DNA from: Gautieria morchelliformis
Lineage: Eukaryota; Basidiomycota; Agaricomycetes; Gomphales; Gomphaceae
Reading direction: 5' to 3'
Length of the DNA: 64,000 nt
Assembly: GCA_015179125.1 (NCBI GenBank)
Contig: WHVA01000077.1
Location: 124,001-188,000 of the forward strand
The notes below the pieces were generated by a model. That model worked only from the letters and a program-made list of their open reading frames with translations. It had not been told where the DNA came from and searched no databases. Positions 15,896 to 50,007 of the stretch are shown piece after piece (the stretch's first letter is position 1; each line of letters starts with the position of its first letter). The position numbers were made by a program, and so were the translations under genes.

Positions 15896-15901
15896 ATTAT
15901 C

Positions 15902-17292: not shown

Positions 17293-17300
17293 TAAGCAAC

Positions 17301-17764: not shown

Positions 17765-17972
17765 TCAAAATGTATTACCAAAACATCTAATATCTGGCTT
17801 TCTTGACCTCTGCCTGTCATCATCCTCAGCACCTACCGCAAAACCATACCTCTTCCCTGCCACTTCAAGCTGTTCCAAGATAAACAGTGCATCAACCATC
17901 TTGAGACTATACCCAACCTTCAAGTTCACAAGCGATAGCCTTGTGATGCTGCTAATGAGCATATCCATTGAC
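17765..17972 (-). pseudogene. gene X copy 2, C-terminal exon part (cut off by the 26.7-kb block)
   Basis: On the minus strand this reads SMDMLISSITRLSLVNLKVG, then MVDALFILEQLEVAGKRYGF and a basic tail. It matches the C-terminus of gene X copy 1 (VVDALFLIEQLEEAGKRYGF at about 43440-43500). Its upstream part lies at 44638-47595 on the same strand. The TTGAC that borders this piece (17968-17972) recurs at 44638-44642, and the coding sequence is collinear across the two. So both are one gene split by everything in between. Function unknown. Confidence 0.8.
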
Positions 17973-18455
17973 TGTCAGGGGACACCCTGTTTTCCATTTC
18001 CAGTTCCGACACCACACCCAGTTCCGACTCCATTTCCGACTCCGCTTCCGGTTCCGATTCCATCTCCGCCTCCGCCTTCGGAAATGATTCTGCTTCTGGG
18101 AGAACTTCCACCAGTTCTGTTCGCCTTGCCAGTTCCGACTCCATTTCCGACTTCCACTCTCAGAACAGTGTTGGAAATCAAGCGACTCACGTAATAGGTG
18201 GCATCAAGGGTCGATCAAGGGTCGGGGAGGTGCAGGGTTGATGGCGGGTGCCAAGTGTTGTCCCTGGCTGCGCAGCGTAGTATAATACGGGCTCGCTGAC
18301 ATTGGGGGTCCTTAGACTTTTCTCTTTGGATTTCCCCTTGTCAGGTGAGAATCCCCTCTCTTGTATGCTCTGTTTGTTTATACATTCTTTGGATTTCCCC
18401 TTGTCAGTTGTGTGGTAGTGTGATCTCCACGACTAGCCAGGGTTGCCCTTACATC
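17973..18455 (+). repeat. Gypsy family B LTR (left border of the 26.7-kb block)
   Basis: 483 bp, TGTCAGGGGACACCC to ...GCCCTTACA. About eight differences from the LTR at 44157 and clearly a different subgroup from the 9293/12416 pair. Flanks differ (TTGAC left, TCACC right), so it is not a simple solo LTR. Confidence 0.93.
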
Positions 18456-18735
18456 ACCCACATCACCCACATCACCCTCATCACCCGCATCAACCTGCAT
18501 CACCTGCATCACCCGCATCACCCGCATCTCTGCACTTCTGCTTCATTCATGCCTTCTATTATTTCCCCCGCATCACCCGCACTCTGCACTTCCACTTCAT
18601 TCATGGCTTCTATTATTTCCCCTGCATCACCCGCACTCTGCACTTCCACTTCATTCATGGCTTCTATGATTTCCCCTGCATCACCCACATCCCTGCACTT
18701 CCACTTCATTCATGGCTTCCATTATTTCCCCTGCA
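18456..18735. repeat. 9-bp (CATCACCC-type) satellite and four 54-bp units
   Basis: Begins with CATCACCCA/CATCACCCG repeats. Then come four units of about 54 bp, each CATCACCC + CTGCACTT + TTCATTCATG + TTATTTCCCC. Because 54 is a multiple of 3, both strands stay open (DAGEIIEAMNEVEVQSAG on the minus strand), but I see no evidence of a real gene. One similar unit lies at about 43917-43960, next to the same 9-bp satellite. Confidence 0.85.
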
Positions 18736-18859
18736 TCACTCACATCACCCACAAAGTGCAGAGCTGTGGGAATAGCATAGTCATAATATTTGACCAAACT
18801 GATTGGTATACTGGTGTTGACACTAGCTGCTGGTACAGGGATAGGACAGATGTGTACAT

Positions 18860-20085
18860 TTACAAGTACCTTGAATGTGTCATCCAACCTTTACAGTGTT
18901 CAGCTGATATTGAAGACATAGCAGTGTGAATGAATAACAAAATAGCCATCTCATCTTTGCCATCTACCGCTTGCCGAAATTCTGCGCCATGGCAGCGAAG
19001 GTATGCCTTCAGGTAAGAAAAGGCCTCCTCAATCAGGTTCATGTCGGGGGAGTATGGTGGTAAGTAGTAGAGGCGCACACCACTGCATAACAGATATTTT
19101 TGAGAATACTTGGGAAATTTGTTAGGATTGCTTACTGTTTTTGGCAAATTGCAGCAACCTCAGGACCATGGTGAATGGTGCAGTTGTCCATCACCAAGAC
19201 ACTGTGCGGCTGGGGCCATGGGTTCAGATATAGCATGAGGTTCGTGATGAATGTCAGGAAGGTGTCAGCGTCATATGATCCCTCGCGGACATCGGAATAA
19301 ATTATCCCCTCATCACAGAGGGCGGGTAGAAGGGAGTACCTACACTGATGTAAATATTAGAGGAAAGTAAGACATGGAAGGAGACATACACTGTGCCACG
19401 CACAAACCTAGCCTTTGATCTTGCTCTTTTCCCTTTCTGCGCCCATCCATTCAAGCAATATGTGGTGCGGAAATCGATCCGGCTCTCATCAATGAATACA
19501 AGACGGCTGGGGCTTTCGTGACCAATTCGGAAACGGAAAACCTGTCGGAGGTCTTCATTTTGCTCCGCAGCAACCTTTAACAACTAACGAGGGAGTAAAT
19601 AAGTTGAAGAATCACAAGAAAAAAAAGGACATACTCGTTTCCGTGTGAGCCCGAGTTCTGTCATTGTATCCCAGAGAGTGCTAACTCCAACAGTTATTCC
19701 ATATAGATGCTGCATGACACCCTGTATTTTGTCGAGGTAGAGGTCCGGGAAGTGTTCTACAAGCCGAATTAGGAACTAGGAGAGAAACCAGATAAGAGTC
19801 AGCGTAATCCGGTATCATCAAGGTTCGCTGCTTGCTTACCTGCATTTCCTCAGGATCCATGATTTTTCTCCTTTTACCCTTCTTGCAGGGTTCCGGTGGC
19901 ATAACCTCACCGGTAGTGCACCATAGTTGCAGAACGTGTTCAACGACGCGTTGCGACATGTTGAGATCCACTGCGATATCAGCAATCTTCTTTTCACGTG
20001 TATACCTCTGATATATAACATGTTTTTGTAGATCCTCTGAGTACGTTTGTCGTTGTCGTAGGTGTTCTGGGATGTATCTAGGCAT
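18860..20085 (-). CDS. Tc1-like (DD34E) transposase, five exons, apparently intact
   Basis: Exons on the minus strand: 20085-19840, 19775-19635, 19583-19390, 19339-19136, 19082-18860. Introns are 64, 51, 50 and 53 bp with GT...AG ends. The exons add up to 1008 bases, or 335 residues plus stop, the usual size for Tc1/mariner transposases. The N-terminal helix-turn-helix region starts MPRYIPEHLRQRQTYSEDL and includes IADIAVDLNMSQRVVEHVL. Catalytic residues: Asp in LVFIDESRID, Asp in VLVMDNCTIHHG, and Glu in PPYSPDMNLIEEAFSYLK, with 34 residues between the last two (DD34E). The enzyme cuts and pastes its element at TA sites in the nucleus. The start is the Met nine codons into a longer frame, chosen because MPR-type starts are usual. 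Terminal inverted repeats were not located, so the element borders are unknown. A host-domesticated gene is possible but not favoured. Confidence 0.88.
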
Positions 20086-20112
20086 CGATGGGACAAGTAC
20101 AACATGTAACAC

Positions 20113-20483
20113 CTGTCACGTGACGTGGTCGCGCATGATGTCATGACATCATGCCAGCAAGACTTGCAGATGAAGAAATATAGTGTCACATCATTGTAAT
20201 TAGAGTATATATAGAGGTTATATTATATTTAAGTCCTTAAACCTGAGGCTTTGGCTATGTAGAAGGCTAAAAAGGCTGTGAGAAGGCAAACAGACATGCA
20301 CCCCTCCCCCCTTCCATAACCTGGATATTACATCATTGTTTTCTATTTCCAACATTTATACATGTATATTACTATAATCTGAGAAAGTTACAGACCTTAC
20401 TGAAAGAATTTGAGTGCATAATGAAGCATATAAGTGAAATTATCCAAATATTCAATAACTCAGAATAAGCCAGGTTTTGTATA
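20113..20483. other. spacer with a perfect 20-bp palindrome at 20134-20153
   Basis: Upstream of the transposase gene lies a 20-bp perfect palindrome (centre GTCATGAC) and nearby CACGTGAC. This could be a transposon-end or transcription-factor site. Otherwise nothing recognised. The sequence is AT-rich with no ORF. Confidence 0.5.
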
Positions 20484-21512
20484 TCAGAGGGTAGCTACTA
20501 CATAGTACAGAATATATACAAAGTACCAGCCCTTAATCATCAATTGCTGTGGAGATACAGCTTGATCCTTTCGAGCGGCACCGGGCGGCATGTATTTCAG
20601 ACTCCGCCCTATGTACCTGAAACAGCTGTAAGCATACGCTGGATTTGGTGTGTGTGAGCAGAGGGAGGATATGGATGGGAGTTTGGATGATGAGGCTACA
20701 GGGCTACGGTCTTCCTGCTTCGGCGAGTCTATGGAGTTGGAATGAAGGGAGGAGCGGAGGTAGGGTGAGGAATACCTGGTGGAATTGGAGTCTGGGGAGC
20801 GATAATGTGTACCCTCGTCCCACCTGCCTTGCGACGGAGTTGACCTATATCCAGAGTCAGGAGTACGTGTTCGACGTGATCGCAGACCCATTACTTGATA
20901 CATATGCAAATCCCGTTCAGCATTGTCGGCGCGGCGACTTTCACGATCCAGCTGGCGTTGGACTTCAAAGAGTTGCTCACGAAGGTGGCGCACCTCAGCA
21001 TCCTGGTCTCGAAGCTGGGCGGTGAGATGCTGCATATGCATAGATTCGAACTGGCGAGCCCTTTGACTTTCATCACGGGCCGCTTGAGCGTTGGGGTCGA
21101 ATGCTTGGGCAACACTTTTCAGGGCTCCCCGGAGCTGCGCGGTGCTGTTTCGAGACCTACCCTCCAACCCCGCCTCGACTTTGACATGTTTAGCAATATA
21201 TGTATTTTTTTGCAGGTGCTTGCGGGGGTTTGTCGTCTGATGAAATCTCGATGATTTCATGGTCTAGGTCATCATTGCGCACGGTTCCAGATGCCACTCG
21301 ATTGGAGATCAAGTGCTCCAGCTCATGTGCATGTTCAATCTCCGGGGACATTCCGCATTGCCTGTGGGCTTCGAAGTGCGCACAAGCTGCGGTTATCATT
21401 GGAAGTCAGTTCACACAGAGAGAGACAGAAGCTGAGCCACTGGCTTACCACCTTGAAGTGCTTCTCTATCGTATCACATGAATGCAGTGGGCGATCATTC
21501 TCTGCAGCCCAG

Positions 21513-22543
21513 TGTCAATATTGGTTTTCAGGTGTTAATATCGTGTATTAGTGAACACAGTGAATGCCTGAATAACTTGTGCGAATAAGTATGCCGTTCG
21601 GCGAATAGGTGAACCAATGAATGTTCACAAGGTAAGAGGGTTTGCCCAAACGGGGCTCACCCTATCTACAGTCATAGCGAAATAGCCCGCGGCTCTTGAC
21701 GATGTAACGTGCAAGGTCTCACGGAAGGGCTGTCTAAGTCTCAACAATCCCTTCGCTGGTAAAGGTGCTCCTTCAGAGCCCTTCGCCAACAGCACAGAAA
21801 ATGGTTCGAAGGCTAAGGTAACGAAGATGAAGTATGGGACTCACCAGTGATGCCTAAGTCCTCTGCTAGTCGAAGATGGAAATCTCCAAGAGAAGGCTTA
21901 AGACGATGACCACGGCGAGGTCAAAGCTGCACAAGATGAACGACATATGATAATTGAACTGGGGAATATACATGCGAATGTAAACTACTTATATTGAATG
22001 CTCGTAAGGTATCAGCGAATAGGAAAGAGGCCGTTGTGAGTCAGGGTTGGATAGGGGTGCGCGGTCATGATACTAGGTAGATGGAATAAACATACAATAG
22101 AGTGAGGGGAGAATGTGAACATGAAACGATGGAGAATAAAGGGAGCGAAGGCACTTATGGACAAAACCATGTCTTGGGACCCGCATACATGCTACACTGC
22201 ATGGGCTCTTTGTTTACTGGGTTGATCCTGCACGACCTATGGAAGGGACGTCCTGCGAACACACTTTGGCCATACGAATCGCCCAATGGGGTTGGATTAA
22301 GAAGATGATGGGGTTAATGATGAACCATCATGCCGGGTGACTGGTATCGATCATATTTGATCGCGTGCCTGCTGGCGAAATGCGCGAGCAGCGAATAGCG
22401 GTTCGGAGAATGCGGCGAACAGCAGGTAGGGTGGACGTAGAGGGGGAGTGGTCGGAGGGTGCGGTGAACTCTGGTGAAGATGCTAGGGAGTGATGAGGGG
22501 AACATAGAGGTAGCGCGATAGGAGAAATAAACCGGTCGTGACA
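21513..22543 (+). repeat. solo LTR, family C (short form), target duplication CCCAG
   Basis: 1031 bp, TGTCAATATTGG to ...CCGGTCGTGACA, flanked by CCCAG at 21508-21512 and 22544-22548. A minus-strand copy with the same ends is at 48812-49840. Longer relatives are at 45252 and 47771. TG/CA ends, short inverted termini (TGTCA/TGACA) and 5-bp duplications indicate a solo LTR. No internal coding region is seen in the window. Confidence 0.9.
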
Positions 22544-22926
22544 CCCAGCTGGCAAACTGCCGGTACAATCTCTCCTACTCCTTCTTCCCGGCTGGCAGCA
22601 GCTCCTCAACGATATCAAGCATAGCTGTAAAATCCTCATCCCGCCAATTCGTAGCCCCGCGAGCCCGTCCCCCCTTTTTACCAACTCCAGCATCATCGTC
22701 CTCGGTATTACTTCCATGCGCCTTCTTGGCCGGTGGCTGCTTTTCCCGGACCGCACCCAGTTTAGCCACTTTGGCCGGGACTAGACCATCTCCCGCTCGA
22801 GCGCGTTTGACCTCCTTGCCGGCCATGACTGCAGTGGATGCTTTCCGCTTACCTGCGATAGCATCGAATGCCAATGGCGGTTCGTTCTCGTCATCCGCAC
22901 CTGCAAAGCTAGTGTAGATAGGTTGC

Positions 22927-24404
22927 TGTTTTGGAACCCTTCAAGACTTTGGTATTATTGATAACACTTCAATCTATCAGAACATGTCGTTTAGAGACTC
23001 AAAGAATATTAAACAATGCTGCAGCACAACTCTGGAAATAATTTAATATTTGTACCTTGGTTGCAATCCGCGTAAAAACTAGTTCAAGTTAATACGGATG
23101 GAAGGCAATGCGTTTCTTAGCAGCACTGAACAATACACTAAAAGACTGTAGGTTAAAGGACACTATTGGGGTCCAAGCATATTGCAAAATATAAAGGGAT
23201 GTACTTAGCAGGCGAGTTTATAAATGGACTGCCCTGATAATCTACCAGCGCACAGCAATAAAACGAGAGGCAAAGAATAGAATCTAAAGCGGCTTTTACA
23301 AGTAACAGGAATTGACTTGTGAAAGATATTAACCAGGAAAATCAACTGATCAACTCTCTCAGGTATTGGAGTGCGAATGGCAAGACTATCAATTGACAGA
23401 CTCACTCTGTAGAATTACACCCGGAGGATTAGTCTAGGTGGCTAAGCAGAAAAGTATCTACTTAACAAGGAATTAGACACTAAAGTAAGTGAATAACCCT
23501 AGCTGGGATTAGCTGCTTAGTAAGATGCAAGTCACACGAGTCATGTGTAGGATAGAAGCAGTAGATTGCTAGATTGGATGATTCTCCTGGGGGTCAGAAT
23601 GGCCTCCTTTTATATTGTAAATTACACAGGATTACATAAAATGGGGAGCTTCTATCTATTAGGCGAGTGATGTCATAAGTAAATATTTGTACAGCTAAAA
23701 CACACCCTTGTAACTATAGTGGTGTGTTTGTGCAAGGAAATTAAGAATAGCTAGCCAATCACCTTCCTTGATTCGCACTGCCTAGCATAGCCTTACACAG
23801 CCCTGCATAGCCCTGCATAGCCCTATGACATCAAGGGTCCTATTTCAGGGGTTGCAGCACTGAGCTTGGAGGCTCATTGTCCAATAGGATTGATTGAATA
23901 TACACCCTAGTTTTGGCCCTGCATATCATTGGGCAGTCTTGCACACAGCCTTACACAGCCATGGTTGCTATGAAGCAGGTCATGCGTCTGCTGGGTTTGA
24001 ACTATATTTAAGTGTACAGGCTTGTGTAAGCTGCACCGGATATTCCCAATCTCACTGGCTGAGGTTGAAAGAGCCTAGGTGTCGGAGTTGTGGGTGTTTG
24101 AGGACGTGCGGCTCTGAATTAGCGCGTTCGAGGATCGCTCCGGTCGGAGTTCTAAATTGAGCGCCGATGACAAAGTTATGGACTCTCATGGGTTCATAGC
24201 CTTTGTCAAACACAATAAAGCAGTTTTGAGCCAAGGCGGTCAGGACAATTGGCGAAAAAATGCAAGAAAATTCAAGGAATATTCTAAAGACAGTTCCCCA
24301 TCAAAGCTGGATGTATTGGCTGATGTTAAGATGGGAAAAAGGTTTTTACAGACTTTTTAAAGCTTTTTTCGACATTTTTAAACTAGAAAGCTGGTTCCTA
24401 CACA
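22927..24404. repeat. solo LTR, family D, target duplication GTTGC
   Basis: 1478 bp, TGTTTTGGAACC at the left and GGTTCCTACACA at the right (near-mirror ends), flanked by GTTGC at 22922-22926 and 24405-24409. A truncated second copy is at 52027-52638. Small ORFs inside (for example 23894-24160) have no recognisable product. Inserted in the first exon of the SANT-like gene. Confidence 0.87.
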
Positions 24405-24549
24405 GTTGCAGGTGGGGTTTAGCCTTAGATATGTTGCTGGGCGCCATTTCCAGATTACCGGTAGGAAGGAGGGACTGAGAAAAAGAGGAAACCGTACTAG
24501 GATGAGGAATCGGACGAGACATATGATTATTTTGAGAGAGTGTTGCCAC

Positions 24550-25094
24550 TGGAACGGTGGGAGTTCAAAGTTAGAGCGGTTATAAAATGTCGCGATACCG
24601 GGAACCAAGGAACCATCCTGAAGGGGGGCAGTAGGAGCTTTCTTGTATGCCATAGAAGTCAGTAATGACGCAGAAAAAGGATGTATGATGCGGAAAAAGA
24701 ATGTACAGTTGTTAGAACATCAAACACAACATGAACCTCCTCTCTTATAGTAACTGTGGTTTGCATGTGTTTGGGGTGACACTCGAGTTTTTTCATGATG
24801 TCTGTGACATGATCATGGAGTTAGACGATGAAACATGGAAGAAAGTGAAATTTTACCATTGTTAGGTGTTGCATATTTCACATTCAACATCAAGGGAGAA
24901 TGAGCGCAAGTACACGGGTGTATGGGATCCTGCTTTGCCAGTCAAATAGGTGAATTTCCATGTATTTTCGATATAGTGACCTTAAAATATAGCATACAGG
25001 TATTGCTATCAGTGGGGATGAACTATTTAAACTTCCTCTAACTTCCTACCATTTCTTTGCCATTTTTAACGAAGTCTTTGGCTCAAAACACTTC
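24550..25094. other. upstream region of the SANT-like gene
   Basis: No gene recognised. It would be the promoter side of the minus-strand SANT-like gene. A short ORF starting MAYKKAPTAPLQ (24653, minus) overlaps the gene start in another frame and could be an unrelated leader. I give it no function. Confidence 0.4.
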
Positions 25095-26008
25095 TAAGAT
25101 AGAAGTCATCTTAAACTGGCACCCCTTATGTAAGCTGAGCACAGTCCAATGGCGAGCTCAATAACACTCGAAGGCAAACACTTTTTGCCAAATGGCTTCC
25201 TAGAGTCTCTTTGGGACATGTCTACCTACAATCCTTAGGAGAGACTTAGGATATATCTATATTTATTGAGGAGATATATAGCATCCAAAATGTGACATAG
25301 AAAAAATATCAAATTATTTTTCCAATGTCTAGAATGATTTCCTGCAATTTTGGTTTTTCGACCGATGGAATTTGGCGGTCACGTGATAGGTCACGTGACC
25401 TATTTGTCAGCCTTTCGAACCTTTGGACAATGCACGAAAAAAGCTTCCAACCACTCTGGGGCCCTTGCTACACATTTCTACTGCTTAAATTGGGGTTTAG
25501 GTAGGTACAACCTTACACTAGGTGAGTTCCACTGCAGGCAGCTTACTTAGTCGTCACTTTGACCGCCCGGCAGGTTGTTCTTGACCCCGTTCACACATTC
25601 AGGCCTCAGGGGTCGTGGCTGTCTAGATGATGTCCCCTTGGTACAGATTCAGAGGTGTGTGAGAATTGTTTCCTATCAGCAGATTCTAACTCCTCAACAG
25701 GTATGCTAATAGGTTGGCCCGATTTATAGATGCCTACAAAAAAGGGTTGAATGGGGCACAAGCTGTCTGGGCAAACCCTAAATACCATGCCCATTATACT
25801 TTACCTCCAAACATTATGTCTGAGTTGGACAAGGAATTCATGTAATATGATTCAATGTCACTAATTATATTATAGAACATGTCATTGCACCAAGGTGCCT
25901 TCTGAAAGGGGGAAAAAAAAAAAAATCCCTGAGGCGAGGATTTGGCCCATCACGTGACCTAAGCGCCCGCTTACATAAAGGTGCCAGTTTAAGATGACTT
26001 CTATCTTA
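25095..26008. mobile_element. MITE with 40-bp inverted ends and TA duplication (Tc1/mariner-type)
   Basis: The left end 25095-25135 and right end 25969-26008 are inverted copies (TAAGATAGAAGTCATCTTAA ... and its mirror) over about 40 bp. TA lies at both outer edges, as left by Tc1/mariner insertions. The element is 914 bp with no transposase. Inside are a CACGTGA pair near 25379-25400 and an A-run near 25912. Confidence 0.78.
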
Positions 26009-26598
26009 TTCTGTTGCAGCAGAGTTATGAATCCACATGTATCCACAACTCTGCTTATTCAAACTCCGACACATGCGAGCCCGAACTTGAGCCTGTGGAC
26101 ACTTACGCACCCACAAACTCTGGCCAACCTACCGGTTCAGACTCAGCACTCTGGAAATAGCAATTTATTCCCAAGCCTCCACAACACAGTTTGTGCAATA
26201 CAAACTCAGCCCAACCTATGCTAGGCTGTGCTGTGCTATAGCTACACTCACATTGGGTCCACAAGATACAACAATCTCTTGATAGTTTATCTAAGAAGCC
26301 CCCATGGTCACATGACTATCACATGACCTCAAAAACAGCTCAAAGTCACCTGATCATCCACAGTCACCTGACAATCACCTGACCTCAAAGTCACCTGATT
26401 ATCTACAGTCACCTGACAATCACCTGACCTCAAAGTCACTTGATTATCTACGGTCACCTGACAATCACATGACACCATCACATGACCTCAACAGCCTGAA
26501 GTCACATGACTTTCCTTCGTCACATGATAATCACATGAGCGTGGGAGTTTCTTACAAACTCTTAGCTTTACTGTCACAGAGCTGTGACTTTAACCCAA
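26009..26598. repeat. spacer with 45-bp tandem repeat (about 26322-26490)
   Basis: About three units of CCTCAAAGTCACCTGATTAT... plus CAGTCACCTGACAATCACCTGA, ending against the 3' end of Helitron A. Many TCACATGA/TCACCTGA words. No gene seen. Confidence 0.7.
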
Positions 26599-29500
26599 CT
26601 AGCCAATAGACCCGTGCTTCGCACCGGGTTATTTAGGGTTAACATTGCACATGGGTAGTTAATAGAATAAAAGAATTATTTGGTGAAATGAAACTACATG
26701 CATTAAATACAAAAGGAAATACATATTTAATCAGGCTTCAGCAACACTTCTTTGTATACAATATTAGAAGTTTTGTTCCCCTCCCCTAAAAGAATATGGA
26801 CTCTGTTCCAATTAGTGCCTCTTGACACTGCAACATACAACTGTCCATGTGAAAATACCACGTATCGCAAGTCTATGCCTACCGTGCCAAGAGACTGCCC
26901 TTGAGACTTGTTGATAGTCATGGCAAAGGCCAGCCTGACAGGAAACTGGCGACGCTAGAGCTCAAATGGCAATTGGTCTGAGGTGGGTGTCACTGTCATC
27001 CTAGGGATAAATGCAGTCTCTCCTGCAAATGGTCCAGAAATGATCCTCAGTTGGTCATATTGATGAGACGCAACCTTGTACCATTGCAGAGTCCATGACC
27101 AAGGTCAATATTCCGAAGAAGCATGAGTACCACTCCAGGTTTAAGCCTGAGTTGAGATGGAGGAAGCCCACCCATGTTGAGTGAGTTAAGATACTCCACA
27201 GGATACACATTGCCATCTTCATTTCCTTTGACCGAGTCTGCACTGGGATAGAGATGCTCATCCCCAGGGAATACATTGAGCACCTCAGCATTAATCTCAT
27301 CCATTTCCATATTGCGAGGGCAAAGGATGGCACGTTCCAAAAAGTATTTGTCTTGGAGTGCCTCCCCAGTACCAATGTTAGGATAAATAGCTGCAATGAG
27401 ATCTGAGACCTGTGGTCCACAGATCATGTGCTGAGGAAGTGTGAATGAATTGTCCAAAGGGCGATCCTTTCCCTGACCAACATCAGAGAGCCACTGAGCA
27501 AATTGTTCACTCTGGGGATCATGAGGGTCGACCCACATATTTTGAGTAAGATGGAGGACCTTGACATGATGCCACAAAGGGGATCTTTGGATAGAAGCAC
27601 CTATGATCTCCTCCTTGTTACCTTGAGGAACAACAGGCAGAGTTTGCTGGAAATCTCCACCCCAAGCCACAGTAATACCACCAAATGGACGATCTGGACG
27701 CTCTAGGACATCCCTGCAGGTTCTGTCGACAGCTTCAACTACATGATGATGCTGCATAGGCACCTCATCCCATATGATCAAATGGACCTGCTTGAGAAGT
27801 TTTGCCAGTGGTGAGCCTCTTTTGATGTCACATAGAGAACCCTCATGAATCAGAATTGGTATCTTGAGCATAGCATGTGATGTTCTGCCCCCAATCAGAA
27901 GCAATGCTGCAATTCCTGAAGATGCAATGCATAGGACAATAAGACCCCTTCCTCTGATAGAATGAGCCAGGGTATTCCAGGTAAAGGTTTTGCCTGTACC
28001 ACCAGGGCCATTGACAAAGAACAGAAGACCCTCTCCATTTATGGCTGAATGGAGGATCTCATCATGGACACACCTCTGTTCTGCATTAAGCTTGTCAATA
28101 TTGGTGGCAGCTTTTTCCAGCTCTGTAGCTGGGTCATAGTCCCGCTGCTCAGATATCCAACGGTTCCCTACCAATCCCTCCCAGTGCCCCATTATCTGTG
28201 GCATATCTGGGAACTCATCCAGAGACTTCCCCCCTGACGTATGATCTTGTCAATGAGAAAGAGACCAAAGTCATAGATTTGATCATTGGTAGGATGGTGA
28301 ATGCCATGCCTATTTTGAAGCTGATGCTCAAGGTCATCACAAATACACTCTCGAAACTCCTCCCAGATTTGAGCAGGCTGAGCAGGGTTACACCGAAGGA
28401 GAATAGTGACAAATAACCTCCTGAGCTGGAAACCTGTTTGTATATGTGCAGCCTCCTGAAGACACTGCGTCCACTCCGAATCATCTTCTAACAGGCCCCT
28501 TGCCAGGCATGCAGCCTTGTAGGTAGGTCAAAGGACACCATCATATGATATAAGCTCCTCAAATGACGTTGCTCCTCTGACAACTGTAAGGAGGGTTCGC
28601 AAGTAAAAGCGCTCTCCAGAGGCTGGACTTGCAAAATGAAGGCGACCGAGACTGAAACCCTGCTGGCGAGGTTTCCACCGCTTGGGTGACTTCTCCCAGA
28701 CATAGTGCTCAGGAAATTCCACATAGAGTCGTTCACGTGCCTCAGGATATCTGTGATTGGCTTCAAAATAGGCCATGAGCATGGTCTTAGCACCCTCTTC
28801 CCTCTGCAAAGCCATGCCTGGATCCATATGAGGATCAAATATCACATTGTGCTGGCCTGGCAAATGGACTGGAAGTGCCATAACAGCAGGGACCTGAACA
28901 TGCATTTTATATTCCAGCAGTCTCCAAGCACCTTCATGTGAGCTGACATAGCGTGCATCGAGGTACTGTTTAACCTCATCCCTCTCCTTATTAATGGCCA
29001 TTGTTGTCCTGTCAGGCCCCTTGTACATATACTTGTGAATGTACTTGATAGAGCGCACATTGAAAGTGGGTTCCACATTAATATGGCATTCAAATTCCAA
29101 GAGGAGGGTGGGACAATAAGGAACCACGTCACAGTTGTCCATGATGTTGCCTCTGACATTATGCTGTCTGCCATCATTAGGACGGCGATACTGTGGATAG
29201 CCATCTTCAGTGACAGATGTCACCTCATGAAATTCCTTTGGGAAATGTTTAGAACACTTGCCCTCTGTCATGCAAGAAGCCCGAGGACGCGCTTGTCCAC
29301 AGGGGCCATGAGTCATTAGATCACAAACTAATTTGTAGAGCCTTGGATGCTCTTGCTTATCAGGAAAGACAGCCCAAACCAAAGCATCCACAGCTTCCGG
29401 TGTCCTGATCTTATCCTCCTCTTTAAACCATATAAGAAGATGCATATGAGGGAGCCCCCGCTTCTGGAATTCGATCACATGGACATGTGCAACTGCGCGA

Positions 29501-32440: not shown

Positions 32441-32459
32441 TACCCAGCGCTGTGCCACA

Positions 32460-36004: not shown

Positions 36005-37581
36005 CTAGGTGGGTACCCGCGCTTCGCGCGGGGGTGTAGGTCAAATGCCTCAGTAAGGTCAAACGCATCAGTAAGGTCAAGTGCATTGTGGCAAATAAAA
36101 AGCATCATGCAAATTATATCCCTGTTCATATATTATCATGAATCATGTATGCCCCCCTGGAACAGCTGAACATGCAGACCTCCCTCTTGACCTCTGGGAT
36201 GGCCTTCCCAGCGACTCTAGACATGAAAGTGGTAATGGTCTTGACTGAATCATCAGAGATTATAAGATTGCGCCTATTGTCATAATCCACAGGTTTCAAA
36301 GCTTGTGCATTGTGAAATAGATCCAATAGTGATCTTGGGGATCCTGAATGTTAACAATGTGGTTATATGGATATGCCAGATGATCCTCCGGTGACACTCT
36401 CACAGAACCAGAAACAATACCAAAATCAGAAATGGGGGAAGACCCAAAGTGCAGTTGGATAGCATGTCCTCACAGGTAGCGTGTCCTCACACGTAACGTG
36501 TCCTCACAGGTAGCATGTCCTCACAGGTAACGTGTCCCCACAGGTAGCGTGTCCTCACAGGTAACGTGTCCTCACATATAATGTGTCCCCACAGGTAGCG
36601 TGTCCTCACATGTAACATGTCCTCACACATATCAGGGACATGTATCAGTATCTATTTTGTGACATATATAGGCATAAATAAAATAGCAAAAGAAACCACA
36701 TTTAAGCAGCTGTTGTCATTAATTTTAGCAAAGCCTGGATAATTTATTGATATCTACCTTTTGAAAAAATGTCAGAAAATGTACAGTACATTTAACCTGA
36801 AGCTGGTATTAATTTCAGCAAAGTCAGGATAGTTCATGGATATCTATATTTATTTTTCAAAAAAAGAAAGTCAGGATAATTCATTGATATCTATATTTAT
36901 TTTTCAAAAAAAGATAAAAAAAAAACACACTACATTAAAACAGAAGTTGTTATTAACTTGAGCAAAGAAGCTATTGATATCCATTTGCGAAAAAATGTCA
37001 AAAAAATGTACATGATATTTAAGTTGGCTGTTATTGAGGTTAGCAAGTTTGATTTATTTATGTCCATTTGCGAAAAAATATCTAAAAATGTACAGGATAT
37101 GTAAGTTGGCTATTGTTAAGGTTAGTAAGTTATGTTTATTCATAGCTATTTGCGAAAAAATATGGAAAAAATACACAGGCCATTGAAGCAGAAGCTGGTG
37201 TCAATTCACAGCCAATGGCAGAAAAGCCCAGAGATGCCCAGAGACACGCAGAGACACACACAAAGACACCTAGAGCCAAGCCAAAGCAATAGTAAGCCCA
37301 CCAGTACAGCCAGAACACAGAAAGACACCGGTGGGGAGTGTGCTTCTGCAGCATCGCTCTCTTTATACCAAGCAAAGGGTCGTGCACAGACCACCCTTGT
37401 ATGCTCGCGTGAACCGGTCACGTGACCTGGAACGCGCGCAGCCTCAATGGTCTGGCCTGGGCCAGGGGCCTAGGGCTCGCAGCTGCGCCGCTCGCGTCCG
37501 ATTGGCCAGCTGACTAATGCTGACCTAAAATCTGACATAAGCACACCCACAACCACCCACCAAGCACGTTTAACTCTTAGA
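36005..37581 (-). mobile_element. complete non-autonomous Helitron (1577 bp), minus strand
   Basis: The 5' end TCTAAGAGTTAAACG starts at 37581. The 3' end is hairpin CCCGCGCGAAGCGCGGG + TACCCAC + CTAG at 36008-36005. Both ends abut other Helitrons with no base between. Order inside: GC-rich leader, short repeat units with TGTCAAAAAATGTACA (37150-36690), minisatellite TCCTCACAGGTAGCGTG (36660-36450), and a remnant ORF (36440-36130) with HFGSSPISDFGIVS and ALKPVDYDNRRNL, shared with the Helitron at 52639-55302. Confidence 0.85.
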
Positions 37582-40500
37582 CTAGGTGGGTACCCGCGCT
37601 TTGCGCGGGGGTGTAGGTCAAGCACCTCAGTAAGGTCAAATGCATCAGTAAGTCTAACATATCAGTAAGGTCAAGTACATTGGGGAAAACCAAAGTAATC
37701 AATTTGCATCCAGTAAAATGAAGTCAAACACATAAACCATATCAAGAGAAGTGGATAAAAAAAAAATCAAGGAGCTCTAAGTAATACATCTTTATATACT
37801 ATGTTGGTTGTGTCCAAACCCTCCTCAAGCAAGACCTTCACTCTGTTCCAATTGGTCCCTCTTGATACACCAACATACAACTGACCATGTCCAAACACTG
37901 GATATCTCAGGTCCAGCCCAACCGTACCCAAAGACTGTCCCTGAGACTTGTTGATAGTCATTGCAAATGCCAAACGCACTGGAAACTGCCTCCTTTGCAG
38001 CACAAATGGCAACTCTCCCTCTGATGGCTTAATGATGATCCTGGGGATGAAAGCAATATTTCCTGCACATGGACCTGAAATGATCCTGACCTCCAACACT
38101 CTAATGCTTATCCTCACCAACCGCAACCTTGTCCCATTGCATAGTCCTTGCTTCTGATCCAAATTGCGCAACAGCATCAGAGGCACTCCAGGCTTGACTT
38201 CCAAGCGAGCAGGAGGAAGACAGCCCATCTCTATGGAATTCAGATACTCCACAGGATACCGATCTGCATCGTCGGATTCTTCAATGGAATTTGCACAGTG
38301 CAAGACCTGAGCATCACCTGGAAACTCCCTAAACACCATGGAATTGATCTCATTGACCTCAGTGTTTCTGGCACAGAGGATGGCACGCTCCAGAAAGTAA
38401 TTGTCCTGGACAGGGACTTGATTGCCAATGCCAGGGTATATTTCCTGGATCAGATCTTCAATTCCAGGGCCACACACCATGTGAGGAGGCAGTGAGAACG
38501 TATGATCTAGTGGGAGATCCTTTCCCTGGCCCACATTCTGCAGCCATTCTGCAAACCTGGCTCTGTCAGGGTCATTTCTCACCCGCATGTTCTCTGTCAG
38601 ATGGATGACCTTGATCTTTGGCCACAGATATGACTTCTGAAGGGTAGCTCCCACGATATCCTCCTTGGAGCCTTTAGGGACAATTGGGAGAGTCTGCTGA
38701 AAGTCACCTCCAAAGGCGACTGTGATGCCACCAAAGGGTCTGTCAGGCTGGTCAAGGAAATCCCTCAGTGTCCTGTCAATGGCCTCTATGGCATGGCGAT
38801 GCTGCATTGCAGCCTCATCCCAGATGAGAAGACTGGCCTGTCTCAGCATGTCAGCCTTGTCAGAGTTCTTTTTGATGGAGGAGAAAGAGCGCTCATGGAC
38901 AGGAATGGGAATTCCAAGCATGCTATGAGAGGTTGTACCCTTAGTGAGGATAAGTGCAGCCATTGCAGATGAGGCTACTGCAATCACAATGAGGCTCTCT
39001 GCTCTACAGGAGTGGATTAGAGTGTTCCATGTGAATGATTTCCCGGCGCCACCTGAGCCAGTGACAAAAAACATTTGTCCATCAGGTTTCCCATGAGCAT
39101 CTCTGGTCAGTGCCGACCGTAATATCTGATCATGCGTGGACATTTGCCCCTCATTCAGCCTGGGAACCTCCTCATCAGCTATGTTCCTCTCTTCAACAGG
39201 GTCATAGTCCCTCTGCTCAGCTATGAACCTGTTTCCAATGAGGGCCTCCCACTCGCCTGCCACCGAGGCATATCATCAAAGCTGCTCAAGGACATTCCAC
39301 CCTGCTGGAGGATGTTTTCCAAGAGAAAGAGGCCAAAATCATAAACCTGATCATCCTGTGGATCCTGCATACCGTGTCTGATTTGCAGCTGATGTCTGAG
39401 ATCATCACATATGTGCTCCCTGAAGCCATCCCATAGTCTGCCAGGACCCGATGGATTGCAATGGCCAAGGATGGTGGCAAAGAGATGTCTGAGCTGAGCA
39501 CCTGTTTTCATGCCACTGGCTTCCTGGAGACACAACCTCAGCTCCTGATCATCATCCAGAAGTCCCCTTGCACGACAGGCCTCCTTGTAAGTAGCATATT
39601 GTATGCCATCCACTGACCTAAGCTCCTCAAAGGATCTAGCCCCCTTGACCACTGTGAGGAGAGTGCGCACAAAAAATCTCTCTCCTGATTTAGGGTTTGC
39701 AAAGTGAAGGCGACCGATGCTATAACCTCTTTGGCGTGGTGTCCATACCTTTTCCTCTGATTGCCAGGTAAAATGCTCAGGAAACTCCACATAGAGCAGA
39801 TCACGTGCTTCAGGGTAGATATCATTGGCCTCAAAGTAAGCCATGAGCGGTGTCTTTTTCGCCTCAGCCCTTTCCAGGATGTTGTCCACATCCTGGTTGG
39901 GATCAAAGATGATTGTGTGATGGTCCTTTTCATGGACTGGCAGTGCCATGACTGCAGGCACCTGGGTGTGGATTTCCCGCTCCAGCAACCTCCAACAGGC
40001 CTCATGAGCACTGACATAGCGAGCGTCCAGGTACTGCTTAATTTCATCCTGGGTGCGACCAAACTCCATGGTGGTCCGATCATGGCCCTTGTAGAGATAC
40101 TTGTGGATATACTTGATACACCTCACATTGATGGTGAGTTCAGGGTTGATGTGACACCAGAATTTGAGCAAGAGCAGAGCAGAGTATGGCACAACCCATC
40201 TGTTGTCCACCATGTCACCTCTGACATTGTGCAGCCTTCCATCATTGCGACGATGATATTTTGGATATCCATCCTCATTCAGACTGGCTTCCTCACAGAA
40301 TGGCTTTGGGAAGTTTTTCTTGCACTTGCCATTTTCCATGCAGGGTGCGTTTGGTTTCATTTCTCCACAGGGACCATGTGTCATCAGCTCACAGACCAAC
40401 CGGTAGAGGACAGGATGAGTCTCTGGATCAGGGAACTCTGCCGAAATCATTGAATCCACCTCATGTGGATGTCTTATCTTGGAACCTCTTTCAAACCAGA

Positions 40501-41890
40501 TAAGAATATGCATGTGTGGGAGTCCCCTTTTCTGGAATTCAATGGTGTGGACGCGAGCGACAGTTTCCCAAAAAATCCTTTCCTTGACGATCAAGTCAAT
40601 GAGGTATTTCTTTTTGAGCTGGAACACCCGCGACACCAGGTCAGGCCTGTCCTGAGGAGTTTGTCCAGGCAACAATGTATCCAATACCTCCTGCCAGTTG
40701 GGATTGGCAGTCATGGTAATAAAGAGATAAGCCACACCATACTTCCTTGAAATGGCCAGAGAGTTCTGCAGGTTTTCCTGCATGTCCCGTGTCCCCCCTG
40801 AAACGTGGCAGGCAGAATGGATCTTGTGCCCAAGTTGTTTGGATCTCTGTCATTGTCATTGCGATGAAAGGCATCCATCATCTGGTTATACATCTCAGCA
40901 CGGAGAGTGTGTTGATTTGTCCTGATCCACCACAGCCTGCTTTGCTCTGCAGCGGCCCAAGAGTCTACAATGTACTGCTGGAATAATTTGCCAGCACGCA
41001 GGAGTGTTGTAGGTTCTTCTGATCTCTGGAAGAGACGATAGGAATGGAACTGAATTTGGGTGACACACCCCCGTCGCTCACGCCCGCCTGGTAATTGGCG
41101 ATAGCGAATACCAGGTTGCCACCCCAACTCTCCCCTGGGAAAGAGCAAGACATAGTGAAGAGAGGCATAGTTTGGATTCATATCGGATACCCTTCAAAAG
41201 CATCCACCTTTGAGTTGGACAATAACATCCCTAGGTTCAGGGTTGATGCCATCTCCAGGAAGAACCACCGCAATCTCATCCGCAGTAGGGATATTATACC
41301 TCCTAGGATCCCTGTGTTCCCTGTATGTGACCCTAGCCCGGATCTCACCATTCTGTCCCTGAGCTCTGAGCCTCTCAGCCGCTTGTCTATATATGGGAAC
41401 ATGAGGATTGCATAGGAGGAGCATTTCCTGCAAGTCTCCCATGATAGTTGGAGACAGACCTGGGTTACGTGCATTCCTCTGTGCCAAAGCCAATGCTGGA
41501 TCATATATATAAAGTTGGGCATACTGTATCTGCCTCCCAGGGTTAGGGATGAGAGAGCCATGAATATGATACAGCTCGCCCTGCAGCTTGAGGACATATG
41601 GACCATGACCCTCCCGAAGCAAATTGAGGTCAAAGTCGGCACCCAAGGAAGTGAATGCAAATCCCGCATTATACTGCCTGATGTTCTGGCGAAACTGTTT
41701 GGCCTCAGGGTCCTGGCCCTCTAAGAGCCGTCTCAATGGCTGAGGGAGCACTGGCAGCTCTGGAAGCTGCACCTTTCCTTCTAAACAGCAATCGCCAAAT
41801 CTGGGCCGCCGATTTGAGGAATTCAGCAGGCGTTCTGCCATCCAGTGTAATGCTCCACAGTCAGGGCAGGGAATAACCATGGGACCCAAA
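37582..41890 (-). mobile_element. Helitron B (autonomous type), 5'-truncated, minus strand
   Basis: The 3' end on the minus strand is hairpin CCCGCGCAAAGCGCGGG, then TACCCAC and CTAG at 37585-37582. The Rep-helicase gene covers 41890-37767. Homology to Helitron C stops abruptly near 41890 (DLGPMVIP), where gene X copy 1 begins on the other strand. The leader and proline-rich N-terminus are therefore missing. Confidence 0.88.
37767..41890 (-). pseudogene. Helitron B Rep-PIF1 helicase, lightly damaged
   Basis: Minus-strand pieces: zinc-finger-like CPDCGALHWMAERL ... FGDCC and Helitron-like N domain (41890-41194), then middle part (41181-40711). Rep follows (40783-39221) with HUH motif GLPHMHILIW and YIHKYLYKGHDRTTME. 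The PIF1 helicase (39263-37767) has [53 protein letters not shown] and VSRGTNWN. Against Helitron C there are three breaks: one in-frame TGA near 41195 and frame slips near 40790 and 39250. It is clearly the same family as Helitron C. The first part is lost with the 5' truncation. Confidence 0.92.
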
Positions 41891-41946
41891 TCACCAAAGA
41901 ACCCACCTCCACAAAAACGCGCCAGGCCGCTGATATCGCAGGCAAG

Positions 41947-43548
41947 ATGCACCTCAGCATGGTGCCCGAGGACGATGAGGACGAGCTCAACGTCCCCATT
42001 GTGAATGATGGTCCGGGATATGCTGAGATACTCGACATTGGTGATGATGATATCGAGTATGTGGATGAGGAGGGAGTGTCTAGCAGCGATGATGATCGTG
42101 ACGGTATGATGGAACCCTCGCCATCTCCACCTCCAGCTCCAAAGAAGAAGGGCAAGGCTGTGAGCAAAGCCAATGCAGTGGCAAAGGATCCTTTGCCTGC
42201 CTGTGCGTATTTTTCTTTCTTTTGTGTTTCCTTTTTTTCTTTTCTTATTTTATGCTTACTGACTAATTCTTTCATATAAATGAAATTTCCTATACCATTC
42301 CGTAACCAAATCGGGGTGATTGCTCATCGAACGCAGCTCGTCAATCCGATGACCACTCTTGACGAGGTGAAGGGGACGCTCCACTTCATACTCGGCCTGT
42401 ACACGATCTCCGAAGAGAAAAGGATCGGCCTCGTAACTCATTTCTACAAGGACCCAGCAAAGCGCTGCTTTGCGTTGGAGACTGAGGACGACTGGATGGC
42501 CTTGAAGGCTGAGTGGGTAAATCAGGTGGCGAAGAGGCCTGTATCAACATCGTTCTTCCCCCCAAGGTCAGCTTTTCTTTCTTTCTCATCATTGATTCAA
42601 ACTAATATACTCTAATTCACAGTTCTTTCAATTTTTAGAAGAGGCAGTCAAAGCACAGACTGGAACCACAGGTAAACCGAAGACTAAAAACAAAGAACTC
42701 GTCAACCCGTTCCTTTCGCAGAAAGAACCGGTTGAACCTGAAGTCGTGGACAGGCGAGCCCTCAATGCCACAAACTTGGATGGATACAAAGTGCAGCTGG
42801 AGAAGCTGCGCGACGTCTGGACTTGCGCTCAGCACGCCAGGTCAATTTGCATGGCGCGTGCCCTCAATGGGCACCATAAGGTCATCAGCAATGAAGGGGA
42901 GCTGGTGTGGGTATTAGAATTGGTATAGTTTTGTGTTTTCTTTCCATAACATGTGTATACTCACCTATTTGTCAATAGATGGATCATAAACCGTGCGTTG
43001 ATCTCAACACACCACCAAATGTGGAGTATTTCAGATTTTTTCACTCCAGCGCGAACCCGGCGGCATCTGAGCACGCACGTCGCGGTGGAACGAGGTACGC
43101 TAGCACTGAGCCCCGCAACAGCCCGCCCCCACCCCTGCCATCAATATCAACTTCCCACTGGAAGTGTTTCAGGCATTTTGCGCTGCCTCACAACCCGCAA
43201 AACGATCTCATTCGCCGGTGTCCACAATGAGTACCGCTGGTAATGCTGATACTCATACACAGGTTGTACCAACAATTCAGGACTGGCTCATGGAGTTGAA
43301 GGGCAAGCAAGAGCTCAGTCATTACACCAGGTGGGAGTTTCTGCGCAGCAGATTTGAAGCTGAGGAATGCCTCAATATCACCCTTACACGCATTGCATGG
43401 ATGTCTCTGGAGACCCTGAAGATATCCTTTGAGCTCAAAGTAGTAGATGCATTGTTTCTGATAGAGCAGCTTGAAGAGGCTGGCAAGAGGTATGGTTTTG
43501 GAGTGGGAGGTGGGCAGAAGGGGTCCAAGAAGGCTAGACACCACTAGA
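41947..43548 (+). pseudogene. gene X copy 1, spliced gene of unknown function
   Basis: Exon 1 (from 41947 or further left) is acidic: VPEDDEDELN, DIGDDDIEYVDEEG, then PPPAPKKKGK. Exon 2 (about 42280-42568) carries the conserved core TTLDEVKGTLHFILGL and RCFALETEDDWMALK. Exon 3 (about 42620-42925) starts FFQFLEEAVKAQTG and ends EGELVWVLEL. Exon 4 (42979-43548) starts VDLNTPPNVEYFRFFHS and ends DALFLIEQLEEAGKRYGF plus a basic tail. Gene X copy 2 has the same exon order. A slip in a C-run at the end of exon 2 and a changed 5' end next to truncated Helitron B mark it as a pseudogene. I do not recognise the family. No membrane segment or known catalytic motif is seen. Confidence 0.7.
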
Positions 43549-43737
43549 ACAGCATAGATAATTAGGAGTGGTACTCATATCAATCTATATTTTGTGCCAT
43601 TGGCAAAATTCAACACAGTACCGTGCATCACCCACATCACTGCACTTCTGCATCACCTGTATCACCATTCAAAGAAAAGGCTGTTATTGACAACAACTTG
43701 ACAGAGGCTAACACACTCCCTGGCAACACATGTCGAC

Positions 43738-43898
43738 CTTACCCCTGCCACAGAAGTCTCTACATTACCCAATGGACTCACAGTTGCTACTGAGGCACAT
43801 CCTCATGCCCAGACCATGACAGTTGGTGCATGGATTGATGCTGATTCTCATGCCAAAACCAACACCATGAACTGCACCCTTCCTTGAACACATGGCAT
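43738..43898 (+). pseudogene. mitochondrial processing peptidase beta fragment
   Basis: The reading frame from 43738 gives STLPNGLTVATEAHPHAQ, MTVGAWIDADSHA and KTNTMN. This is the N-terminal core of the M16 peptidase MPP-beta (usual form: TLPNGLTVATE, TVGVWIDAGSRAE, NGTAHFLEHM). After the NGT position a few bases are missing. The zinc-site sequence FLEHMA is then readable in another frame at about 43880-43898. The complete enzyme removes presequences from proteins imported into the mitochondrial matrix. Here only about 50 codons remain, next to a satellite, so it is a gene fragment. Confidence 0.88.
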
Positions 43899-43908
43899 GC
43901 AGTGATGC

Positions 43909-44156
43909 GGGTGACAGAAGCTTTTATTTCCCCTGCACCACCAGCATCACCCACGTCACCCACATCCCCATCACCCACATCACCCGCATCACCCGCATCA
44001 CCCGCATCACCCGCATCACCCGCATCACCCGCATCACCCGCATCACCCGCATCACCCGCATCACCCGCATCACCCCGCATCACCCGCATCACCCGCATCA
44101 CCCGCATCACCCGCATCACCCTCATCACCCGCATCACCTGCATCACCCACATCACC
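43909..44156. repeat. CATCACCCG satellite (9-bp unit), right end of block
   Basis: About 20 units of CATCACCCG with CATCACCCA and CATCACCTG variants, preceded by one 54-bp-type unit. It ends in TCACC at the family B LTR. The same satellite restarts in register at 18456 behind the other LTR. Open frames through it (PASPASP) are satellite translations. Confidence 0.92.
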
Positions 44157-44637
44157 TGTCAGGGGACACCCTGTTTTCCATTTCCAGTTCCGACACCACA
44201 CCCAGTTCCGACTCCATTTCCGACTCCGCTTCCGGTTCCGATTCCATCTCCACCTCAGCCTTCGGAAATGATTCCGCTTCTGGGAGAACTTCCACCAGTT
44301 CTGTTCGCCTTGCCAGTTCCGACTCCATTTCCGACTTCCACTCTCGGAACAGTGTCGGAAATCAAGCAACTCGCGTAATAGGTGGCATCAAGGGTCGATC
44401 AAGGGTCGGGGAGGTGCAGGGTTGATGGCGGGTGCCAAGTGTTGTCCCTGGCTGCGCAGCGTAGTATAATACGGGCTCGCTGACATTGGGGGTCCTTAGA
44501 CTTTTCTCTTTGGATTTCCCCTTGTCAGGTGAGAATCCCCTCTCTTGTATGCTCTGTTTGTTTATACATTCTTTGGATTTCCCCTTGTCAGTTGTGTGGT
44601 AGTGTGATCTCCACGACTAGCCAGGGTTTCCCTTACA
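44157..44637 (+). repeat. Gypsy family B LTR (right border of the 26.7-kb block)
   Basis: 481 bp, same ends as the LTR at 17973 and about 98% identical by eye. Flanks TCACC left and TTGAC right, the mirror arrangement of the left-border LTR. Confidence 0.93.
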
Positions 44638-47595
44638 TTGACTCTTCCTCGGCAACCTTTGTTGCAGAAGATCCCACCTGTTGTACGCGAGGCGCTGCAT
44701 CTCCAAGTGCGTGATCCACTCCCCGGGGGTAGGCGAGTCATCCACTGGCAGATGTGCATTGTCATCCGGACTTGCCACATAATCACTGGATGATGGGGAG
44801 CAGCCCCGTTTGGGATGAGAGTGGTGAGAAGCCTGTAGATGCTGAAAGATGTCGGTGGGGAAATTGATGTGGATGGGGGGAATGGCAGGCATAACAGGAG
44901 GAGCAGCGTCAAGAGGCATGCTAGTAGGTGGCTCACTATAATGCCGCGTGCCACCTCGATGAAGGACTGGGGCACTGCTGCCATCTTGGGTGTGGAAGAA
45001 CTTCAAATATTCAATCTTGGGAGGGGTGTTGATGTCCACGTCGCTTGTACCACCTATCTATTACAATGTTAGCGCATGAAATAAAACAGATCAAAGAAAA
45101 CCTTACGAGCTCTAATACCCAGGAAAGTTCGCCCTCGAAGTTCAGTACCTTGTGGTGGCCTCTCAATCCATGTGCCATATTGACTTGGGGTGCTGGTCAC
45201 AGGACCAGGCTTCCCTGAGCTTCCTGAGTCATGCTGACCTTGCCATATCAGTGTCAAGATTGGTTTTTAGGCGTTAATATCATGTATTAGTGAACACAGC
45301 GAATGCCCGAATAACTTGTGCGAATAAGTATGCCGTTCGGCGAATAGATGAACCAATGAATGTTCACAAGGTAAGAGGGTTGCCCGAACGGGGCTCACCC
45401 TATCTACAGTCGTAGCGAAATAGCCCGTGGCACTTGACGATGTAATGTGCAAGGTCTCACAGAAGGGCTGTCTAAGTCTCGACAATCCCTTCGCCGGCAA
45501 AGGTGCTCCTTCGGAGCCCTTCGCCAACAGCACAGAAAATGGTTCGAAGGCTAAGGTAACAAAGATGAAGTATGAGAACTCACCAGTGACGCCTAAGTCC
45601 TCTGCTAGTCGAAGATGGAACTCTCCAAGAGAAGGCTTAAGACGATGACCACAGCGAGGTCAAATTTGCACAAGATGAACGACGTATGATAATTGAACTG
45701 GGGAATATACATGCGAATGCAAACTACTGATATCGAATGCTCATAAGGTATCAGCGAATAGGAAAGAGGCCGTCACGAGTCAGGGTTGGATAGGGGTGCG
45801 CAGTCAGGATACAACATAGAGGGAATAAACATACAATAGAATGAGAGAAGAGGGAGAACATGAAATAACGGAGAGTGAAGGTGGCGAAGACACCTGTGTA
45901 CGAAATCATGTCTTGGGGCCCGCATATACACTGCCCTGCACGGGTTCTTCATCTACTGGGTTGATCCCAGATGACCTATGGGTAGGACGTCCCGCGAACG
46001 CACCCTGCTCATATGAACACCAAAAGGGGGTTGGATCGAGGAGCTGATGGAGTTACTGATGAGCCATCATGCCGGATAGGGATGTCAATTGTCATTTGAT
46101 GGTGTGCCTGCTGGCGAATGATGCGAGCAGCGAATGGTCGTTCGGCGAAATGCAAGGAAGGGCGAACAGAGGTGACATAGAGGAGGAGAGGTCGAGGTGG
46201 AGGGCGAAGCCGAGCGAACACTGGGGACGAGTAGCGAAAGGGGAAATGGGGATAACAAGGTGCAGGAAATACACAGGTCATGACAATCCAATTACCAGAA
46301 CACCATTGGAAGAGGGTCGAGCAGAGGAGGTGGGAGACCCAGCGATGACTGCCAAGTCAGTCCAAAGACGTCGATCGTGCGTTTGATGGTGTGGCTATGG
46401 TAATCGGTGTGAACAGCGAGAATCGGTTGCCGAACACAACAATGGTGATCGGAACTAACATGGAAATGGGGTGAGAAATGGCAGGACAGAGCACCTGAGT
46501 ATGAGAAATAAACGTGTCATGACAATCAGCTGCACCTAGCTTTACCACCGACTCAGACTCAATGGCTGCATCATCCGGAAGAAAGGGGTTAACAGCAGGC
46601 TTGGCCTTTCCTTTAGAGCCACAACGGCCTCCTCCAGAAAGTCAAAAAACTATCACAATTTTAGCTTTAGAAGAACAAAATAAAATAAAAACATACCTTG
46701 GGACCAGTTACTTCACCCTGTTTTGCTGCCCGTTTCCTCCATTTGTCCTTAAGGGCCTCCCAGTGATTGTCAGTGTTGGGAGTGAAACAAAGCTTGGCCG
46801 GATTGTGTTTGATATGCATAACAAGGGGAGGGCGCTTCACGGCTGGTATCGCATCCAGGCCGAGGATGAGGTGAATGGTCTCCTTCAGGTCGGCTATGGT
46901 TGTTGTCGGCTCGACATGGTGTGTACACCATATGACCTGTTTGAGTCCGAAATGGGAGGGGATACTAAACTTAATAGCTGTATATAAATTGTTAGTGTGC
47001 AAAAAAAAGGTGAGAATAATAAGCATACTGTGAGGCAAGGCAACCGCTGCCTTGCTTGCTCCTTTGCCAACCTTTCTCACCACTATAGCCTTTGACGTCT
47101 GGTCCGAAGGAGATGGGAGTTCGATGTCCAATGGTTCAAGGCCTGAAAATATATCTTTGTCGCTGCTCATTGAGGGGTGGTCCATGTAAAGATCCTCGTC
47201 GTCCGCATCAATCTCTTGATTAGTTTTGATTAGGGACTCCTGTTCTTCTAGAATCATACTGAGTGTGACAGTAGTAACAGGGCCAGGCTCCTGGATGTCA
47301 GGGGCAGGCGCAGGCGCACGGGAAGTGGTCACGGCCTTGGGAGCAGTAGAGGGATGAACCGGGGGGGGGGGGGCTTAGATGGTACAGCTATAGTCCCTGC
47401 TGTCTCTGAGCCGGTCACCGGCTTGGAGACCCGTTTTGCATCACTTGACTGGAGTAGGCGACTGGAAGGGGTCCTGGATCGATGTCCCTTGACTATGTGT
47501 GAGGGATCTACCAAGTCCCGCTGACGGGTTTTCAGTTTGCTGGGAGGTGGCTCCCTGGGTGGTTTGGTGGTTACTTTGCCCTTTTGATGGGCCAT
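44638..47595 (-). pseudogene. gene X copy 2, main part, split by solo LTR C
   Basis: Starts MAHQKGKVTTKPPREPPPS at 47595. Exon 1 runs to about 47029, with a C-run near 47362 where the frame slips, then EEQESLIKTNQEIDADDEDL. Exon 2 (46977-46697) has the core TTTIADLKETIHLILGL and WEALKDKWRKRAAKQ. Exon 3 (from 46649) starts FFDFLEEAV, contains VNPFLPDDAA and is cut by a 1273-bp solo LTR at 46524-45252. It resumes after the LTR to EGELSWVLEL. The last exon starts DINTPPKIEYLKFFHT and runs to 44643. It continues beyond the 26.7-kb block at 17972. Exon borders match copy 1. At least three frame slips make it a pseudogene. Function unknown. Confidence 0.75.
45252..46524 (+). repeat. solo LTR, family C (long form), target duplication ATCAG
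   Basis: 1273 bp, TGTCAAGATTGG to ...CGTGTCATGACA, flanked by ATCAG at 45247-45251 and 46525-46529. Compared with the short form it carries an extra ~240-bp 3' module (CCCAGCGATGACTGCC...). Inserted in exon 3 of gene X copy 2. Confidence 0.92.
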
Positions 47596-49840: not shown

Positions 49841-50007
49841 GTGATAGGCCCAGCGATGACTGCCAATTCAGTCCAAGGACGATGATCGTGCTTTGATGGC
49901 GTGGCTATGGTAAATGGCACGAATAGCAAGGATCGGTTGCTGAACATGGCAAGGGCGATCGGAACGAACACGAAGGTGGAGTGAGAAATGGGAGAACAGA
50001 GCATCTG

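Follow-up and report, generated by a model that had tools for sequence, protein, structure and literature searches.

The window, a 64,000-nucleotide stretch of the Gautieria morchelliformis genome, contains 26 kb of DNA set between two long terminal repeats (LTRs) inside a copy of the dispersed repeat X, which raises the question of how this block came to lie there. All comparisons were made within one assembly of 122 Mb and 1113 contigs, in which contig C859 carries the window. The features of the locus are collected in Table 1.

Table 1. Features of the rearranged locus, in window positions unless a contig is named
Feature	Position	Strand	Description
Window	C859:124001-188000		
Left half of repeat X	15031..17972		Dispersed repeat; ends in target TTGAC (17968-17972)
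LTR-L	17973-18453	+	481 bp; TTGAC outside, TCACC inside (18454-18458); no primer binding site after it
Rearranged block	between LTR-L and LTR-R		26 kb, inside repeat X
Right half of Y	18454..20631	+	In order: satellite, body, intact right terminal inverted repeat (20115-20631)
DNA right of Y	20632..37473		Nested repeats, another Helitron, three low-copy stretches
3' (C-terminal) Helitron part	37474..41893	-	Broken mid-gene at 41893
Joint a	41893..41894		Blunt Helitron-Y joint without microhomology
Left half of Y	41894..44156	+	Lacks ~920 bp including left terminal repeat; satellite and TCACC (44152-44156) at its end
LTR-R	44157-44637	+	481 bp; inside flank TCACC, outside flank TTGAC; not preceded by a polypurine tract
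Right half of repeat X	44638..45251		Includes TTGAC copy (44638-44642)
Z	C859:210060-211676		1.6 kb unrelated to Y, at the scar in place of the expected 920-bp Y tip

Mismatched target duplications serve as evidence of inter-element LTR recombination. An earlier note on this DNA had placed TTGAC outside and TCACC inside at both LTRs, and all four 5-mers were confirmed; the flanks, the outer empty sites and the register of the satellite agree in showing target duplications exchanged between two LTRs. The outer join was tested with an empty-site query made from the two flanks, against 17 distinct fetched copies of X. Sixteen of these align across the site with a single 5-mer (TTGAC in eight, TCGAC in eight) where the window has an LTR, 26 kb and a second LTR, and the 17th, at C670, has no homology on the left side. 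The collinearity of the outer flanks once joined, as the earlier note had claimed, was thus borne out in 16 of the 17 fetched copies in the same genome. Because the empty sites hold a single 5-mer, insertion with a 5-bp duplication at X is well supported, and the outer match, backed by these sites, is strong evidence. A segment of the window's X copy, 15348-15903, is missing from the other X copies.

An outer 5-bp duplication, together with the private changes common to both LTRs that are described below, would also be left by a single huge composite LTR retrotransposon inserted at TTGAC. We examined 28 LTRs of the family with their flanks, besides the window's two. The primer site GCAGAAAAGT follows seven of the 28, a purine tract precedes eight, and 13 have neither; in real elements the 5' LTR is followed by GCAGAAAAGT and the 3' LTR is preceded by a GGGGTGA tract. 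The block has neither priming site nor tract, it has satellite on both sides, and a composite element leaves the split Helitron, described below, unexplained, making this origin scarcely credible. Among the 13 LTRs without a priming site, ten have a perfect 5-bp duplication (including the copy at C756), one has an imperfect duplication (CTCGG/CTCAG) and two have exchanged duplications. Both of the latter sit at C191 (C191:73214-74233), inverted and 49 bp apart; when the 49-bp spacer is turned round, both duplications return, as CTCCC/CTCCC and GTACT/GTACT. The arrangement at C191 agrees with an LTR-LTR inversion and gives this family a second example of recombination between LTRs. The family also has a copy with both LTRs in the window at 9293-12905, 3.6 kb long, with duplication CCCAG and LTRs 99.6% identical; given paired LTR matches ~6 kb apart at C182 and C308, it looks like an internal-deletion derivative.

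The inner flanks of the LTR pair are the two halves of a second repeat, the transposon-like Y, which has terminal inverted repeats of ~517 bp (TTACAGCTGTTTCGG...), a central CATCACCCG satellite and a right end that is sharp, at 20631. At least 11 Y copies have 42200..43914 followed by satellite and then 18454..20500, with the match to the second part limited to its first 766 bases in the copy at C352. Compared with Y, the block shows circular permutation, with a closing joint, and the 9-bp satellite register is kept across the inner join after one TCACC is dropped. The satellite continuity and 9-bp register claimed for the inner join were therefore upheld, the two halves being joined in at least 11 Y copies. 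As 30 of 293 satellite 5-mers are TCACC, about one tenth, the inner TCACC match taken alone is weak to modest evidence (~1 in 10). An LTR flanked by TCACC on both sides within satellite was sought elsewhere through CATCACC-LTR junctions, allowing up to two mismatches, and 42 junctions were found. In this set, the sole exact junction besides the window is that at C756, an ordinary insertion outside satellite, and none of the other 40, placed by coordinates only, falls inside a listed Y copy. Extrapolation from this junction search gives an estimated 1,700-2,500 LTR copies genome-wide; a first look listed 2549 candidates. Several Y copies have the satellite in both orientations, and no Y target duplication was evident at C133, C590 or C637.

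The left half of Y stops at 41894, ~920 bp short of the Y end, and abuts a Helitron cut inside its gene. A search with this joint returned 554 candidates, of which 40 matches were scored: in 32 Helitrons the match stops at the joint (at 41893 in 31 and at 41889 in one), and in seven Y copies it starts there (at 41894 in six and at 41895 in one). No second copy of the joint was found among the 40 scored of 554 candidates, both sides being present in the window alone. All 22 of the 32 Helitrons that were read across the break base are unbroken there.

A paralogue of the block's low-copy DNA, at C404, led to C859:209000-214500, where the counterpart of this break was located. A Helitron 5' part lies at joint b, the scar between C859:210059 and 210060; it runs in opposite orientation, and its first base is precisely the one that follows the break. 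The two Helitron parts therefore meet at the same base on the same chromosome (41893 and C859:210059), and the distance from C859:210059 to LTR-R, on the same contig, is 41,422 bp. Unbroken sequence at the break base was seen in 25 of 25 other Helitron copies checked (20 fetched, those at C987 and C732, and three on C859). Against the C987 and C732 copies, the block part is 99.0-99.2% identical over 199-262 bp, and the scar part is 98.7-98.9% identical by substitutions only, or 93.9-94.2% with a ~60-bp gap counted; against a nearby intact copy, the values are 96.3% for the block part and 96.9% for the scar part. The two parts thus match the references about equally, the ~60-bp gap aside, as would fit a single subfamily, and we strongly infer that both come from one Helitron. 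The neighbourhood of the scar is dense in Helitrons, with a cluster of copies and fragments of one family at C859:192000-210059, two of them unbroken at the break point. It is nevertheless unlikely that the scar is an independent truncated copy that happens to break at the same base.

Two further explanations bear on these joints. Since LTRs are repeats, reads might have been misjoined at them during assembly. Joints a and b are blunt, lie outside any shared repeat and match to the base, as a repeat-driven misjoin would not, and we regard an assembly artefact as highly improbable. Alternatively, a break in the X LTR may have been repaired from the Y LTR, with copying outward for 23 kb on one side and 2 kb on the other and joining of the ends at 41893/41894. 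Such copying would be expected to leave the locus looking as it does, with a blunt joint and LTRs that have been homogenised. It predicts an intact donor, yet the break in a Helitron on C859 falls at the base where the block's Helitron part ends, and the source has apparently lost the segment. Beyond the absence of another exact satellite-LTR junction from the search above, a second near-identical copy of the block's low-copy DNA was not found among 40 scored of 198 candidates, which argues that the block was probably moved, not copied. Copying is accordingly a very doubtful account of the locus.

All two-step cut-and-join histories were enumerated from an assumed ancestral order, with X, Y and the Helitron as anchors. 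Exactly two histories emerged: in one, a circle is excised and integrates by LTR-LTR recombination; in the other, an LTR-LTR inversion precedes a second inversion. We consider it probable that the 26-kb stretch was relocated by ~41 kb through LTR-LTR recombination and one clean break, in the form of an LTR-LTR inversion and then an overlapping inversion. The starting point would have been two solo LTRs of one family, in inverted orientation and ~65 kb apart on the chromosome, one in X with TTGAC duplicated and the other in the satellite of Y with TCACC duplicated, near an intact Helitron. The ancestral order would have been X-left, LTR, X-right, and further along Helitron 5', Helitron 3', flank, Y-right, inverted LTR, Y-left and Z. 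A crossover between the two LTRs would have inverted the intervening DNA, with gene conversion making the LTRs nearly identical. A second inversion, by blunt non-homologous joining, would then have cut the Helitron mid-gene and the DNA beside the left part of Y. The outcome would be a 26-kb block between two direct LTRs in X, with the other Helitron part 41 kb off and reversed. What is observed comprises the exchanged duplications, the empty sites, the joint and, elsewhere on that contig, a Helitron break that matches to the base; to these, the two inversions would add the origin of both Helitron parts from one copy, the order of events, the nature of each step and an ancestral adjacency of Y and Z. 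Undoing both inversions restores X and the Helitron, and Y-left then meets Z rather than its 920-bp tip. As Z, and not the Y tip, lies beyond the scar, a loss or an insertion there must be added to the inversion history.

The earlier note had proposed that a 26-kb circle entered by LTR-LTR recombination. The recombination between LTRs, the transfer of a whole block and the permutation stand, but the circle is not required, since inversions are an equally short route. In the circular version, the 26-kb segment would have been cut out beside C859:210059, closed into a circle at 41893/41894, and returned at the solo LTR in X by one crossover. Its two steps account for the scar and the blunt joint as well as for the exchanged duplications and the circular permutation; the route agrees with a block whose low-copy DNA was probably moved, and circles could reinsert locally. 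It also demands two rare events within one short-lived episode, as we reconstruct it, and a landing 41 kb from the scar among the estimated 1,700-2,500 LTRs would be an unexpected coincidence. We therefore hold the circle to be unlikely; were it true, LTRs would be docking sites for circular DNA in fungi, with the excision scar still visible. Inversions are preferred because all four junctions lie in cis within ~70 kb of one contig, set against the many LTRs open to a free circle, and the LTR-LTR inversion at C191 in the same family is a further reason. The preference over an equally short route is a judgement of likelihood, based on distance and priors.

The LTRs themselves carry traces consistent with recombination. 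LTR-L and LTR-R are 98.3% identical (8 differences over 481), and they share 11 sites that depart from the family majority, of which five are absent from 30 other copies (one copy being gapped at two of these sites). Five of the 11 shared sites, three of them private, fall in one short stretch and amount to one base gained and one lost; the private changes common to the two LTRs therefore represent at most four events. Among ten other solo LTRs, compared as 45 pairs, the number of private sites per pair is at most one, and the excess in LTR-L and LTR-R is as expected had these two recombined. The eight differences between them are rare states (found in 0 to 6 of 30 copies), four in each LTR. 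Near identity of the LTRs after the event would fit crossing over with gene conversion. Their distance (8 of 481) is ordinary for the family, with 5 of the 45 other pairs equally close. The changes common to both LTRs span site 104 to site 459 and no mosaic is visible; in the lack of a clean reciprocal mosaic, the inversion history requires homogenisation of the LTRs, a point against it.

The circle reading has a close precedent in apes. There, a permuted block bounded by SVA elements, with target duplications on their inner and outer sides, was interpreted as circle integration (PMC9132208; PMC7450558). As the ape SVA case is described, two mobile-element copies likewise flank the block, with the duplications of one insertion inside and those of another outside, and part of the block is shifted to the opposite end (PMC9132208). 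Unlike the present locus, that case is reported as a duplication with reciprocally chimeric SVAs (PMC9132208); here, the segment is apparently gone from its source, the two LTRs have been homogenised and the same contig carries the scar, and for these reasons inversions fit equally. The circular intermediates described for human segmental duplications similarly show reversed block order and non-homologous breakpoints (PMC7450558). For fungi, the account in PMC9694575 gives a wine yeast case of translocation mediated by extrachromosomal circular DNA and none found in 306 genomes of the rice-blast fungus M. oryzae. That search, as described, sought the same reversed order of adjacent segments as is found here, and it masked transposable elements, leaving it blind to LTR-mediated events like the present one (PMC9694575). 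In the reported cases of inter-element LTR recombination, LTRs are likewise the sites of exchange (PMC2672092); the present locus differs from those described in that its reciprocal junctions are still in cis and can be matched.

At this locus, the junctions of a relocation mediated by mobile elements are well resolved and can be matched to one another within one genome. Exchanged duplications with circular permutation can be produced equally by two overlapping inversions where the segment is missing from its source on the same chromosome, and claims for circular DNA therefore need the scar and its distance, as inversions give the same signature. Screens that mask transposable elements would miss such relocations.

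Finally, we note several other features of the window. Within the block, the segment 32400-33332 (~0.93 kb) has the opposite orientation to its paralogues on many contigs, and inverted repeats at 32258-32399 and 33040-33179 lie near its edges. Two long palindromes were observed, one of 0.5 kb at 901-1398 with 98% self-complementarity and one of 2 kb at 47769-49842 with 80% self-complementarity. The window also encodes a Copia protein, whose named relatives include Meripilus and Sparassis, both Agaricomycetes.
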